The notes under the pieces were generated by a model that saw only the letters and a program-made list of their open reading frames with translations, was not told where the DNA came from and did no database searches. 64,000 bases of DNA from Kitasatospora setae KM-6054 (lineage in GTDB: Bacteria; Actinomycetota; Actinomycetes; Streptomycetales; Streptomycetaceae), in assembly GCF_000269985.1 (NCBI RefSeq), contig NC_016109.1, positions 4,154,001 through 4,218,000 on the forward strand, in the 5' to 3' direction. Below, piece by piece: positions 53,975-60,321 of the stretch. Position 1 is the first letter of the stretch. Every line of letters begins with the position of its first letter. The position numbers and the translations under genes were made by a program.

Positions 53975-55207
53975 ATGGACCACATATCCAGGAACACCGC
54001 CCAGACCCGCGGCCCGCTGGTTCCCGGGCCGACCGTCCCCGGTCGGCTCCCACTCGGCACCGACGTCCCCCGGCCCCTCGGCCGGGGGACGTCGGTGTTG
54101 CCACCCAGACCCGCCGGACGCACGGTCGGGAGCCACACGGCACGTCAACTGCTCGCCCTGTCCGAGCTGGTGGGTCTGGACGGGGGCGACTCCGCGAGTT
54201 ACGCCCGCGCCCTGACCGATGCGCTCGGGCCGGTGGTGCACCGGACCCTCGACCTGCCGCCCGCCGTACCGACCTTCCTCTCCGACGACCACACCCCCGT
54301 CGAGTTCTCGCTGTCGATGTCCCCCGGCGGCACCCCCGCCCTCCGGGTGCTGCTCGAACCCGCCAGCGGCTTCGGCGACCTCGGCGAGAGCAGCCGGCTC
54401 GGCCTGCGCGCGCTCCGCTCCCTCGCCCGCCGCTGGGACATCGCCACCGACCAACTCGACCTGGTCCAGGACCTCTTCCTGCCCGACGACCCGCAGGGCA
54501 GCTTCGCCCTCTGGATCGCCCTGGAGCTCACCCCCGGCGGCACCCCCCGGATGAAGGTCTACCTCAACCCCGCCGCCACCGGCCCCGACCGGGCCGCCGC
54601 CACCATCCGCGAGGCCCTGCGCCGGCTCGGCCACCACCAGGCGTACGACAGCCTCCCGCCCGCCGACCGGCTGCTCTTCCTCGCCCTCGACCTCGGCGCC
54701 TGGGAGACCCCCCGGCTCAAGGTCTACACCGCCCACCACGGGCTGCGGGCCTCCACCGTCGGCACCCTCAACCGGATGGCCGGCGGCCCCCCGGCCGCCG
54801 AGACCGAAGCCTTCCTGCACACCGCCGCCGGACTGCCCGCCGACCAGGACGCCGTCTTCGACCGGCGCCCCGTCCTGAGCTGCCACTCCTTCACCGACCC
54901 GGCGGCGGACCGCCCCAGCGGCTTCACCCTGCACGTCCCGGTCCGCGACTACGCCCAGGACGACCGCGAGGCGCTCGGCCGCGCCGAGACCCTGCTGACC
55001 CGGTACGGGATCGCCCCCGGCATCCTCGGCGACGCCCTCGGCGCCCTCACCCCGCGCCGCCCCGAGGACGGCGTCGGCCTGATCGCCTACCTGGCCATGG
55101 TCCACCAGGACGGACGCCTCCCCCGGCTGACCGCCTACCTCTCCTCCGAGGCCTACCGCGTCCGCACGCCCAACCGACGACCGACCGGTCCGCGCCCCGT
55201 CCGCTGA
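53975..55207 (+). CDS. DMATS-type aromatic (indole) prenyltransferase
   Basis: 410 residues from ATG 53975 with AGGAGGGTG upstream. ABBA-fold prenyltransferase features of the bacterial DMATS family: VEFSLSMSPGGTPALRVLLEPASG, FALWIALELTPGGTPRMKVYLNP, LALDLGAWETPRLKVYTAHH, and FTLHVPVRDYAQDDREALGRA, with the Lys/Arg/Tyr strands that bind dimethylallyl diphosphate. Bacterial members prenylate tryptophan at C5, C6 or C7. A flavin monooxygenase follows convergently, as in the S. coelicolor SCO7467/SCO7468 pair. Regiochemistry cannot be read from sequence. Confidence 0.9.
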   Translation: MDHISRNTAQTRGPLVPGPTVPGRLPLGTDVPRPLGRGTSVLPPRPAGRTVGSHTARQLLALSELVGLDGGDSASYARALTDALGPVVHRTLDLPPAVPTFLSDDHTPVEFSLSMSPGGTPALRVLLEPASGFGDLGESSRLGLRALRSLARRWDIATDQLDLVQDLFLPDDPQGSFALWIALELTPGGTPRMKVYLNPAATGPDRAAATIREALRRLGHHQAYDSLPPADRLLFLALDLGAWETPRLKVYTAHHGLRASTVGTLNRMAGGPPAAETEAFLHTAAGLPADQDAVFDRRPVLSCHSFTDPAADRPSGFTLHVPVRDYAQDDREALGRAETLLTRYGIAPGILGDALGALTPRRPEDGVGLIAYLAMVHQDGRLPRLTAYLSSEAYRVRTPNRRPTGPRPVR

Positions 55208-55460: not shown

Positions 55461-56750
55461 CTAGAGCTCCGCGAGCCGGCGCTGGTAGGGCGTCACGTCG
55501 ACGTGCACCGAGGCGCCCGCCGACAGGCCGTACCGGCGCTCGATCCCGGCCAGGAAGTCGTCGACCTCCTTGTGCATCACGTCGGCCGCCGGCAGCACCG
55601 ACTCGCCCTTGGCCAGCCGCACCACCCAGCGCGCCTGCGCCTCCACCAGCCGGGTGATCGACCCCACCGGGCGGATCAGGCCCAGGAAGAACAGGCCCGG
55701 CCGGTCCGGGTCCACCATCCGCTGGTACAGCCGCACCGGCCCCCGCCCGCCCGCCGGGTGGTCCTCCGCCAGGAACGGCATCCGCCACCCGAACCCGGTG
55801 CAGAACACGATCGCGTCCGCCTCCTCCGTGCTCCCGTCCGTGAACCGGACGGTCGACCCGGACAGCGACTCGATGCCCGGCCGCGGCCGGACCGCCCCCT
55901 GCCGGATCCGCGGCAGGATCTCGTCCGAGACCGTCACCGGCGACTGGAAGATCCGGTACGGCGGCTCCGGCAGCCCGTAGTCGGTCAGCGGGCCGCGCGC
56001 CACCCGCAGCGCCTCCTCGATGAACTCCTGCTGCTCCGGCAGCGACTTCTCGGTGAACCACGGCGCCACCGCGATCGCGTCCACCGAGACGCCGAACAGC
56101 TGCTTGGGCACCACGTGCTGGCCGTTGCGCACCGAGAGCACCGTGCGCTCCGCGTGCCGCGACACGTCCGCCGCGATGTCCACCGCCGACGCCCCGAGGC
56201 CCACCACGACCACCCGGCGCCCGGCGAACTCCGCGCCGTCCACGTAGTCCATCGAGTGCAGCAGCCGACCCGTGAACGACTCCGCGCCCGCCGGCAGCGG
56301 GTTCGGCAGCAGCGCCACGTCGTGGTGCCCCGCCGCCACCACCACCTGGTCGAAGGTCCGGACCGACTCCGCCCCGTCCGCGCCCCGGCTCACCACCGTC
56401 CATATGCCGTCCGCGCCCTGACGCACCGACACCGCCTCGGTGCCGAACTCGATGTGCGGCAGCAGGCCCGCCCACTCCGCGAACTCCCGCAGGTAGACCG
56501 CCATGTCCCGGTGGCTCGGGTACATCCCGTGCTCCTCGTCCATCGGGAACGCCTCGAAGCAGGTCAGCTCCCGCGCACTGTTCAGGTGCAGCGCCCGGTA
56601 CGCCGGGCCCGGCTCCCCCGCCGCCGACCGCCGCCAGATCCCGCCCACGCCGGGGGACTTCTCCAGGCAGACGAAGTCCAGCCCGCCCTCGCGCAACGCG
56701 TACGCCGCCGCCAGGCCCGACAGGCCCGCACCGATCACACAGACACTCAC
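55461..56750 (-). CDS. Flavin-containing monooxygenase (FMO-like)
   Basis: 429 residues from ATG 56750. FAD Rossmann motif [17 protein letters not shown] (7-23), [23 protein letters not shown] fingerprint [17 protein letters not shown] motif [19 protein letters not shown], and FCTGFGW near the C-terminus. Such enzymes N- or S-oxygenate substrates. Paired with a DMATS prenyltransferase, the precedent is N-oxidation of prenyl-tryptophan to aldoxime or nitrile products. Transcribed toward the prenyltransferase, with the SARP gene divergent upstream. Confidence 0.92.
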
Positions 56751-57153
56751 CGCTTACCTCCACGACTCGTCAGGAACCAACCGACCGCTTCCCCAACGAT
56801 CTTGACTCCCCCACACGGACGCCCTTCACACCGGCCCCCGGAATCACGGGGCAGCCGCTCCGACATCCGACCATCCGACTGTCCGGTTGTCAGCCGTTCC
56901 GCCTTTCCCACCATCCGCCCAGCCGCTTATCCGCCCAGCCGCTCATCCGGTATCCAGCCCAGCCGATCCTCGGAATCTCCCACCATCCGACTTCCCTACC
57001 GTCCTTCTGACCGTCCGTCCTTCCATCCGTCTGTACGGTTGTCCGGTCGGCCACTGATCCGGTCGTCGGGCCGTCGACCCATCACACTGTCGAACTGTCG
57101 GGCTGTCGGAATGTCGGGCCGTCGGGATGTCGGACGACGGATGAGGGGGCGCC
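56751..57153. promoter_or_regulatory. Divergent promoter region between FMO and SARP genes, filled by octamer repeats
   Basis: 403 bases with no gene. About 270 bases of it form the 8-base repeat array described separately, so both promoters must lie in or beside the repeats. I could not identify standard hexamers. Confidence 0.7.
56863..57134. repeat. Degenerate 8-base tandem repeat array, 34 units in register
   Basis: Every 8 bases from 56863 to 57134 falls on one lattice with consensus close to CCATCCGN on the left and CTGTCGGN on the right. TC occupies positions 4-5 in 26 of 34 units. Examples: ACATCCGA, CCATCCGA, CTGTCCGG, CCATCCGC, TTATCCGC, and at the right end CTGTCGAA, CTGTCGGG, CTGTCGGA, ATGTCGGG, CCGTCGGG, ATGTCGGA. 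The array ends 19 bases before the SARP ATG. I see no comparable array elsewhere in the window. Confidence 0.85.
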
Positions 57154-60100
57154 ATGGCGGAGCACGGGACGGACCAGCCGTCCGCCTTCGGCCCGCTGCT
57201 CCGCGACCTGCGCACCCGCGCCGGGAGCAGCCAGCAGGCCACCGCCGCCCGCGCCGGGATCAGCGCCCGGGCGCTGCGCGACCTCGAACACGGGCGGGTG
57301 CGGCGGCCCCGCGAGCAGACCGTCCGGCGGCTGGCCGACGCCCTCGGCCTGAGCGCCGGCGAGACCGGCGCGCTGCGCGCGGCCGCCGCCCGCGGCGGCG
57401 AAGCCGACGGGCCGCCCGAGCCCGGCCGGACCACCCTGCTGGTGCTCGGCCCGCTCTCCCTGCGCCGCGGCCGCGACACCGTCCCGGTCGGCAGCCCCAC
57501 CCTGCGCCGGCTGCTCGGCCTGCTCGCCCTCGCCCACCCGGCCGCCGCCACCCGGCAGGAGATCACCGACACCCTGTGGCCGTCCGGGCCGCCCGACTCG
57601 CAGCAGAGCCTGATCCACACCTACGTCAGCCAACTGCGCCGCCTCCTCGACCCCGAAGGACCGGCCCCCGCCGTCGCCCGCACCCCCGCCGGCTACCGGC
57701 TCGACCTGCCTCGCCACCGGATCGACCTCGGCCGCTTCGACGAACTCCTGGCCCGCACCACCTCCCTGCGGCACGCCCCCGACCCGGACGCCGCGCACCA
57801 GGACCTCACCCGCGCCCTGCGCTGGTGGCGCGGCCCCGTCCTCGCCGACGCCGACCCGGTCCTGCGCCGCCACCCCGCAGCGGTCGCCGCCAACGAACGA
57901 CGGATCCGCGCCGCCCTGCTGCACGCCGACACCGCGCTGCTGCTGCGCCGCCCCGACCACGCCGTCCCCCTGCTGCGCGAACTCGCCCACACCGAGCCCC
58001 TGCACGAGGGCCTGCACGCCCGGCTGGTCCTCACCCTCGCCGCGAGCGGCCGCCAGGACGCCGCCCTCGACGCCTACGCCCGGCTGCGCGCCCGCCTCGA
58101 CGAGGAGCTCGGCGTCACCCCGGGGCCCGAACTCCAGGACGCCCACCTCCGCGTCCTGCGCGGCCACCCGCGCACCACCCCCGCCCCGGCCCCCGCCTCC
58201 ACCACCCTCCCCGTCCCCGTCCCCGCCCAACTCTCCTCCCCACCACGCCAGTTCGTCGGCCGCGACCGCCAACTGCGCGAACTCGACGCCCTGCTCCCGG
58301 CCGCCCCCGCCGACGGCTCCCCGCTCGTCGCGGTGGTCGGGCCGCCCGGCGTCGGCAAGAGCGCCCTCGTCGCGCACTGGGCGCACGGGCACCGCGACCG
58401 CTTCCCCGACGGCCGGCTCCACGCCGACCTGCGCGGGCACGCCGACCGGCCCCCGGCCCGGCCCGACACCGTCCTCGCCCGCTTCCTGCGCGCCCTCGGC
58501 ACCCCACCCGACCGGCTGCCCGCCGACCCCGACGAAGCCGCCGCGCTCTACCGCACCCTGCTCGCCGACCGCCGCCTGCTGATCGTCCTCGACGACGCCC
58601 GCGACGCCGCCCAGGTCCGCCCGCTGCTCCCCGGCGCCCCCGGCTGCACCGTCCTGGTCACCGGCCGCGGCCGGCTCACCGGCCTGCTGGCCGGCGACGG
58701 CGCCCGCCGCCTCACCCTCGACCCGCTCGACCCTGCGGAGGGCAGCCTGCTGCTCGGCACCGTCCTCGGCCCCTCCCGGGTCGCCGCCGAACCCGCCGCC
58801 GCCCGCCGCCTCGTCCACGCCTGCGGCGGCCTCCCCCTCGCCCTCCGGATCGCCGCCGCCGACCTGACCACCCGCGGCACCGCCCTCACCGACTACGCCC
58901 CCGCCCGCCCCGACGCCGCCCTGCTCGCCCGCCTCGACCTCCCCGACGACCCGCACACCGGCCTCCGCGTCGCCTTCGACCGCTCCTACCGCGCCCTCCC
59001 CGCCCCCGCCCGCCACCTGTTCCGCCTCCTCGGCCACGCCCCCGCCGCCGGCCTCACCGCCGAAACCGCCGCCACCCTGGCCGCCACCACCCCCGCCGAG
59101 ACCGCCACCCAGCTCGCCCGACTCGCCGACGCCCACCTCCTCCACGAACGTCCCCCCGGCCACTACCGGCTGCCCGGGCTGCTCCACCCGTACGCCGCGG
59201 GGCTGCCGGACGAGACCGGTCGGCCGCTTGACGTCAATCAACTGCCTGACGCCAAGCGGGCGAGCGACCTCGATCGCGACCCCGAGCACAATCAACTGAT
59301 TGACCTCACTCGAACGACCGACCGCAAGGTGCTGCCCCTCCTCACTCCCTCCCTCTCCCGCACCCCCTCCCTCCCCCGCACACCCGCCCGGCAGCCCCAG
59401 CCCGGCCCGTACCCCGACGACATCACCGTCCTGGGCCTGATCTGCTGGAAGCTCGGCCGACTGCCCGAGGCCGCCGACCACTTCGCCCACGCCGCCCGGC
59501 TGCTCGGCGCTCCGAGCCGCGACGACGGCCCCGGCGGGGCGGCCGACCGGGAGGACCGCGACCGGGAGGACCGCGACCGGGAGGACGCCGACCGGGAGGC
59601 GATCGCCCGGACCAACCTGGCCGTCGTCCAGCGGGCGCTGGGGCGGCCCGCGGAGGCGATCCGGCTGCTCGGCGAGACGCTGCCGGTGCACCGCCGGCAC
59701 CACAACCGGTTCAGCGCGGCGGTCGCCCTGACCTGCCTCTCCGCCGCCCACACCGACCTGGGCGACCACGCCACCGGACAGCTGCTCGCCCACAGCGCGC
59801 TCACCGCCGCCCGCGCGGTACGCCACCGGGCCCTCCAGGCGAACGCCCAACTCGCCCTGGCGGAGTCCCACTTCACCGCCCGGCGGACCGCCGAGGCGGC
59901 CGCGGCCCACCGCGAGGCGCTGGCGCTGGCCGAGGCGTCCGGCGACCGCCACCCGCAAGCCGCCGCCCTGGCCGGCCTGGCCGCCGCGCTGCTCGACACC
60001 GACCCGCGGGCCGCGCTGCGCACCGCCGAACGGGCGCTGGCGCTCGCCCGCGCGGCCGAGTTCCGGGTGCTGGAGGGCGAGGCGCTCACCGTCCTGACCC

Positions 60101-60321
60101 GGGTCCGGGCCCGCCTCGGCGATCCGCACACCGCGCTGTCCCTCGGCCGCGACGCCCTCGCCCGGCAGCGCGAGACCGGCCACCGCCCCGGCGAGGCCCG
60201 GGCCCACCTCGCCCTGGCCCAGGCCGCCGCTGCGCTCGGCTCCGACGCCGAGGCCGTCCGGCACCGCCGGGAGGCCCTGCTGATCACCCGGGCCGCGGCC
60301 GGCAGCATCCCGCCGAACTGA
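57154..60321 (+). CDS. XRE-SARP-NB-ARC-TPR fusion transcriptional regulator (AfsR-like)
   Basis: 1,055 residues from ATG 57154 (GAGGGGG upstream). Order: XRE helix-turn-helix (about 12-70, LLRDLRTRAGSSQQATAARAGISARALRDLEHGRVRRP); OmpR-type winged helix and BTAD of the SARP family (about 90-330, VPVGSPTLRRLLGLLALAHPAAATRQEITDTLWP, DELLARTTSLRHAPD, LDEELGVTPGPELQDAHLRVL); NB-ARC ATPase with P-loop GPPGVGKSALVAHWAHG (about 396) and DDARDAAQVRPLLPGAPGCTVLVTGRGRL; C-terminal TPRs (about 750-1045). Typical pathway-specific or global antibiotic regulator. Oddities: an AT-rich in-frame patch at 59228-59302 and a DREDRDRE repeat at about 59550. Confidence 0.94.
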   Translation: MAEHGTDQPSAFGPLLRDLRTRAGSSQQATAARAGISARALRDLEHGRVRRPREQTVRRLADALGLSAGETGALRAAAARGGEADGPPEPGRTTLLVLGPLSLRRGRDTVPVGSPTLRRLLGLLALAHPAAATRQEITDTLWPSGPPDSQQSLIHTYVSQLRRLLDPEGPAPAVARTPAGYRLDLPRHRIDLGRFDELLARTTSLRHAPDPDAAHQDLTRALRWWRGPVLADADPVLRRHPAAVAANERRIRAALLHADTALLLRRPDHAVPLLRELAHTEPLHEGLHARLVLTLAASGRQDAALDAYARLRARLDEELGVTPGPELQDAHLRVLRGHPRTTPAPAPASTTLPVPVPAQLSSPPRQFVGRDRQLRELDALLPAAPADGSPLVAVVGPPGVGKSALVAHWAHGHRDRFPDGRLHADLRGHADRPPARPDTVLARFLRALGTPPDRLPADPDEAAALYRTLLADRRLLIVLDDARDAAQVRPLLPGAPGCTVLVTGRGRLTGLLAGDGARRLTLDPLDPAEGSLLLGTVLGPSRVAAEPAAARRLVHACGGLPLALRIAAADLTTRGTALTDYAPARPDAALLARLDLPDDPHTGLRVAFDRSYRALPAPARHLFRLLGHAPAAGLTAETAATLAATTPAETATQLARLADAHLLHERPPGHYRLPGLLHPYAAGLPDETGRPLDVNQLPDAKRASDLDRDPEHNQLIDLTRTTDRKVLPLLTPSLSRTPSLPRTPARQPQPGPYPDDITVLGLICWKLGRLPEAADHFAHAARLLGAPSRDDGPGGAADREDRDREDRDREDADREAIARTNLAVVQRALGRPAEAIRLLGETLPVHRRHHNRFSAAVALTCLSAAHTDLGDHATGQLLAHSALTAARAVRHRALQANAQLALAESHFTARRTAEAAAAHREALALAEASGDRHPQAAALAGLAAALLDTDPRAALRTAERALALARAAEFRVLEGEALTVLTRVRARLGDPHTALSLGRDALARQRETGHRPGEARAHLALAQAAAALGSDAEAVRHRREALLITRAAAGSIPPN

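Follow-up and report, generated by a model that had tools for sequence, protein, structure and literature searches.

A degenerate array of 34 octamers lies in the 403-bp spacer between two divergent genes of Kitasatospora setae KM-6054, which encode a flavin-containing monooxygenase (FMO) and an XRE-SARP regulator. The array is probably a lineage-specific degenerate promoter minisatellite that was built locally and has replaced ancestral promoter elements. The window, i.e., the whole stretch of DNA that was analysed, comprises 64,000 nucleotides and corresponds to positions 4154001–4218000 of the host genome (8.78 Mb, single contig). The features of the locus are listed below in window coordinates, with the basis of each in brackets.

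53975–55207, + strand: aromatic prenyltransferase gene, Trp_DMAT family (Pfam PF11991, E 1.7e-11)
55461–56750, − strand: FMO gene, left member of the divergent pair (Pfam FMO-like, E 1.2e-73)
56751–57153, no strand: spacer of the divergent pair, 403 bp (ORF list; Pfam)
56797–56806, − strand: CGATCTTGAC block, kept or nearly so in the aligned relatives (alignment)
56863–57134, + strand: degenerate octamer array, 34 units (lag-8 identity against shuffles; register)
56863–57030, + strand: left part of the array, C-rich, CCATCCGN / CCAGCCGC type (GC skew; local duplications of 16 and 24 bp)
57063–57134, + strand: right part of the array, G-leaning, CTGTCGGN type (GC skew; identity of 0.775 in units 29–34)
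57083–57089, + strand: CACACTG, possible remnant of the ancestral right-hand block of the SARP gene (second-best site for that block)
57154–60321, + strand: XRE-SARP regulator gene, right member of the divergent pair, ORF of 1055 aa (Pfam; ORF list)

The Pfam domains of the regulator were HTH_31, Trans_reg_C, BTAD, NB-ARC, and TPR. Each of the other 16 FMO loci with an identity of 61% or more (L058–L073) also had a relative of the prenyltransferase, and the FMO and the Trp_DMAT prenyltransferase may form a small prenylation gene set.

Register and internal structure of the array

Identity within the array at lags of 8, 16, 24, and 32 bases was 0.598, 0.586, 0.577, and 0.487, respectively. At lag 8, the mean of 2000 dinucleotide shuffles was 0.285 (sd 0.028), and none of them reached the value of the array. 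The mean identity between units was 0.41–0.60 at every distance from 1 to 30 units, indicating that the register runs without slip over 272 bp. The 34 consecutive in-register units described by a sequence-only reading of this DNA were thus borne out. C occupied position 5 in 33 of the 34 units, and TC occupied positions 4–5 in 26, the same count as in that reading; 18 of the 20 TCSG cores shared one phase, and position 8 carried almost zero information. The consensus drifted from CCATCCGN to CTGTCGGN, in agreement with the change toward the SARP gene reported there, and the six best units (57087–57134; mean identity 0.775) end 19 bases 5′ of the ATG at 57154, where they had been placed before. 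The poorest-fitting units were those at 56951 and 57047.

Lag-8 autocorrelation across the genome had been proposed as a check, and the array, besides exceeding all shuffles, was the top lag-8 site among 272-bp segments of a 2,064,000-base sample consisting of 100 stretches of 20 kb and the window; the runner-up reached 0.50. Among 136-bp segments, a GC-rich array at L152:582 surpassed it (0.688 vs 0.633), and values comparable to that of the octamer array were observed in 272-bp segments at other periods (0.624 at lag 14 and 0.627 at lag 17). Tandem Repeats Finder detected pieces of the octamer array and not the whole, because its units differ so much.

GC skew was −0.41 and −0.54 in the two halves of the left part and +0.11 in the right part. 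The turn from CCATCCGN to CTGTCGGN, from C-rich to G-leaning, hence accompanies a change of skew between the divergent genes. Units one to three apart were more alike (0.587) than those at least ten apart (0.495), and this difference of 0.092, reached by 0 of 5000 permutations of unit order, was carried by unit positions 3, 6, and 8. Furthermore, pieces of 16 and 24 bp were repeated within the array at 81–90%. The likeness of neighbours and these repeated pieces are traces of stepwise local duplication, as in a minisatellite, and the units likewise stand head to tail with constant length and a single register. Changes between neighbouring units were spread unevenly over unit positions (2 at position 5 vs 9–21 at the others; dispersion P 0.017), which is a weak hint of constraint on the array. 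A coding origin was rejected: by reasoning, the long ORFs across the array were ascribed to its stop-free units, and the spacer differs in relatives.

The spacer and its promoter-like blocks in relatives

Among the matches listed in a search of 70 genus genomes, the FMO/SARP pair was identified in at least six relatives (G023, G024, G025, G042, G011, and G012), and further, more distant pairs are possible. Each spacer was tested on its own against 500 shuffles. None of the six relatives showed significance at lag 8 (33 to 500 of 500 shuffles reached the observed value), and 0 of 500 reached it for the host spacer. Periodicity of other kinds was found in the relatives: a 10-bp array with an identity of 0.89 in 64 bp in G042, a 10-bp array (0.83) together with an 18-bp repeat (0.78) in G025, and a 14-bp array (0.82) in G012, with 0 of 500 shuffles at any lag for each of these three spacers. 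Periodicity was weak in G024 (0.60 at lag 24; 16 of 500 shuffles), and no array of any period was found in the spacers of G023 and G011 (57 and 183 of 500 shuffles, respectively). These results indicated that the spacer bears unrelated short arrays which differ from species to species, and that the octamer array is seen in the host lineage alone. The sequence-only reading had named a register kept by no relative as one result that would refute it, and none of the six relatives with the gene pair kept it; in this comparison of copy number, which covers other species only, an 8-bp array was present in 0 of 6 spacers. In G024 (L055), the N-terminus of the SARP protein and the right-hand promoter block appear to have been lost to the right of the FMO gene, with the FMO and prenyltransferase genes kept.

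Upstream regions of SARP orthologues were fetched from 15 loci, of which 12 were scanned; the other three were excluded because the right-hand block is deleted (G024), the locus lies at a contig edge (G046), or the identity is only 47% (G061). Eleven of the 12 had a TTGCC block followed 24–25 bp further on by an A(C/A/G)ACTG block, and the twelfth, G044, had a variant block with a score of 13.5. In a leave-one-out test of the two-block model, the 11 orthologues scored 9.2–42.2 and the host spacer −2.6 to 1.2. On 1000 random 403-bp stretches of the host genome, the model gave a mean of −3.5, a 95% point of 3.8, and a maximum of 13.1, under which the weakest orthologue (G050, 9.2) falls. The host spacer scores like random host DNA, and the TTGCC...ACTG block was not found in it. 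Of the 16 other FMO orthologues, 13 had a TATGCT-type motif beside the CGATCTTGAC block on their side of the spacer, and this motif was absent from the host spacer. The TTGCC...ACTG and TATGCT blocks may be promoter elements, and in relatives these putative elements sit in the spacer.

Displaced copies of the ancestral blocks inside the array (at 56901, 57082, and others) were sought and rejected, since shuffling the unit order gave scores just as good (P 0.56 for either block). The CACACTG at 57083–57089 was likewise indistinguishable from chance within the lattice, the best score of the array having P 0.56 against unit-order shuffles. A simple scan for sigma-70 promoters and terminators gave none in the spacer, with almost none expected in such DNA. 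Upstream of the SARP orthologues of G020 and G055 (L019/L048 and L021/L050), GGTCTAGTCCA immediately precedes AACTGATCG, an arrangement that we take to resemble a DasR-type site.

Other repeats in the host genome and the family

Short matches to the octamer array were found in at least 10 of 69 other genus genomes (up to 10 candidates per genome scored) and, at E 1e-6, in at least 6 of 248 other genomes of a family draw (3 candidates per genome scored); the two sets overlap. Among the same numbers of candidates, no full-length match was found in either set, and many of the matches elsewhere were short homogeneous arrays. The reversed array, used as a control, gave matches in at least 15 of the 69 genomes, and in 16 of 70 including the host (up to 10 candidates per genome). 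Because the control matched as often, the count shows merely that such octamer arrays are common, and an element shared across genomes was rejected, as the reversed array yields no fewer matches (15/69 vs 10/69). When reversed, CTGTCGGG is its own rotation, which makes the control imperfect. A genome-wide octamer family was also rejected: a four-unit GTCSG pattern had 7 matches in the host, vs 14 for the reversed control.

The unit of the right-hand part recurs at another site in G011 (L212:1455–1569), where 14.4 copies of CGGGCTGT are 99% identical. Near-perfect arrays were also found at other sites, of CCATCCGC in G152 and of CCCGACAG in G131, G193, and G076. Near-perfect octamer arrays of Streptomycetaceae thus share the CTGTCGGG and CCATCCGC octamers with the host array. 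They are homogeneous and shorter (14.4 copies, 99%), unlike the degenerate host array, and their count is not above that of the reversed control. In the 2.06-Mb host sample, Tandem Repeats Finder reported 400 loci (at least 3.5 copies, period of at least 5), and the period was not a multiple of three at 111 of these and was 8 at 7 of them. A perfect TCCCGGC array of 14.9 copies is located at L196:2548–2651 of the host genome.

The host also contains dispersed degenerate lattices in which TGWCRYGWCA-like palindromes recur every 14/15 bp (20 bp in some cases). The 2.06-Mb sample held six clusters, and a whole-genome search starting from one strong lattice gave 20 further host sites (42 match rows, counting both strands and self). 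The loci are as follows.

Host lattices: L201–L210, L152:17–264, L172:10776–11024, L107:18295–18608
Further host lattices: L184:4709–4913, L143:4441–4588, L190:17671–17853
G042 lattices: L227, L233–L238

Among the 70 genus genomes, such lattices were numerous only in the host and G042, with one short match in each of five others; in the family draw (249 genomes, 3 candidates per genome scored), at least 3 genomes matched at E 1e-8, all of the same genus. The octamer array falls outside this palindromic family: it was not among the sites listed in the host family search, and the window held no cluster of at least five cores. Matching flanks were found for 4 of 10 host lattice loci compared with seven G042 loci, indicating that at least those four lattices predate the split of host and G042 and stay in place. 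The four 14-bp lattices of the host were 0.68–0.71 identical to their G042 counterparts, with 0 to 43 gap columns, and identity in the 400-bp flanks, part of which may be genic, was 0.85–0.95. The period was kept in both copies (lag-14 identity 0.60–0.73), and the sequence difference of the lattices was approximately two to five times that of the flanks. Lattices of the host genome hence change fast yet remain periodic, a behaviour that the flank comparison shows but does not explain. They may be more interesting than the octamer array.

Origin of the octamer array

The reality of the lattice, the lack of an 8-bp period in the six relatives, and the missing promoter-like block together lead to the reading as a lineage-specific minisatellite. 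Under this model, local duplication and slippage would have assembled the octamer array in the host lineage, and the growing array would have overwritten or displaced the old promoter elements. Later duplication and fast substitution would then have diverged the units, with the 8-bp register retained. In this way, the ancestral promoter of the SARP gene would likely have been lost, possibly along with that of the FMO gene, and the affected genes may now be silent or rewired. The sequence-only reading had suggested a young minisatellite. The second word gains support from the arrays of the spacer, which vary by species, and from the near-perfect arrays of the same octamers at other sites in other species; the first does not fit, as the mean unit identity is only about 50–60%.

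This divergence speaks against the minisatellite reading. The silent divergence of the FMO gene (NG86) was 0.152 from G024 and 0.146 from G009, and the SARP distances among G000 (host), G023, and G042 were 0.203, 0.218, and 0.118, which assign about 0.15 to the host lineage. In a simulation, an array growing from a single unit under even substitution required approximately 0.5–0.8 substitutions per site to give the observed identities. At the silent-site rate, simple slippage is thus not fast enough, and the units are too divergent for it at an even rate (0.5–0.8 vs ~0.15). Spacers may, however, change faster than silent sites of GC-rich genes, and the other host lattices compared with G042 likewise diverge faster than the DNA around them.

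The units would no longer be too divergent for the age of the lineage if the array had been imported already degenerate, or were old and lost in relatives, an origin that we regard as improbable. No full-length match was found in the 69 genus and 248 family-draw genomes (up to 10 and 3 candidates per genome, respectively; overlapping sets), and loss in relatives would require separate survival of the SARP promoter-like block in five of them.

It is similarly doubtful that the array is a multi-site platform under selection, in which a regulator would bind the TC[C/G]G core cooperatively once per 8 bp and control both genes. The C at position 5 of 33 of the 34 units, the uneven change over positions, and the 272 bp without a register slip are in line with such a platform, and a new control may be needed where the ancestral promoter-like block is missing. 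Against it, the 8-bp period was significant in none of the six relatives with the gene pair, 8 bp does not equal a whole helical turn, the strong likeness of neighbouring units is a duplication signal, and the simple scan gave no sigma-70-like promoter, of which almost none is expected in such DNA. The spacing is also unlike that of SARPs. TCGAG, a SARP operator motif, was absent from the array, and identity was not raised at lag 10 (0.195) or lag 11 (0.268); a SARP box was rejected for the lack of this motif and of a 10/11-bp period. The earlier proposal of a multi-site platform for a SARP is not supported, given these results and the 8-bp period in 0 of 6 relatives. SARP operators are described as heptamer direct repeats with 11-bp (or 10-bp) spacing, those of PimR with two to three repeat copies (PMC5930380). 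The array resembles them as direct repeats in a SARP-linked promoter region, and differs in its 8-bp unit and 34 copies.

More broadly, the lattice might be a working, fast-evolving cis-element in place of the conserved divergent promoter, with a DNA-binding protein imposing selection on the 8-bp register and the TC core and the other unit positions free to drift; this seems quite unlikely. If true, degenerate lattices of Kitasatospora, including those of 14/15 bp, would form a class of DNA of their own, with a role in regulation or chromosome organisation.

A chromosomal clt-like site, whose 8-bp repeats would serve a TraB/FtsK-type conjugation translocase, is very unlikely: GACCCGGA, presumably the TRS octamer of pSVH1, has no site of at least 7/8 in the array on either strand, so this TraB TRS was rejected, and the array is not conserved in relatives. 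TRS may vary between plasmids, hence the absence of GACCCGGA is not decisive. Streptomyces TraB is reported to recognise the 8-bp TRS repeats of clt loci (PMC4170104, PMC3583192, PMC3218068), and chromosomal clt-like sequences have been reported in Streptomyces (PMC4170104, PMC3218068), in favour of such a site. The array has the 8-bp period of clt loci, unlike which it lacks that octamer.

Tandem repeats directly 5′ of genes are known from another actinobacterium. Promoter VNTRs occur in Mycobacterium tuberculosis, e.g., at dop, lpdA, and cysG, and the cysG and lpdA units are 54–58 bp with strain-level copy-number variation (PMC12817950). The host array is similar in its position directly 5′ of genes and in differing between relatives, and both kinds are likely to alter promoter function. 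Unlike the VNTRs, its units are 8 bp and highly degenerate, and its differences are those between species only. A survey of bacterial satellites tabulated 38 tandem arrays for Streptomyces coelicolor (PMC6749651); these are tandem like the host array, and degenerate promoter arrays are not described in the part of the survey used here. In the titles and abstract openings of the open-licence papers listed by literature searches, no such octamer array is described for Kitasatospora or Streptomyces.

The array looks like an ordinary kind of fast-changing repeat and not a novel control element; a striking promoter lattice need not be an operator. Its most specific trait appears to be the replacement of a conserved promoter. 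It is apparently a natural instance in which the conserved promoter of a pathway regulator, whose gene lies beside those for a monooxygenase and a prenyltransferase, has been erased by a tandem repeat. If so, promoter turnover through short repeats in these actinomycetes becomes directly testable.
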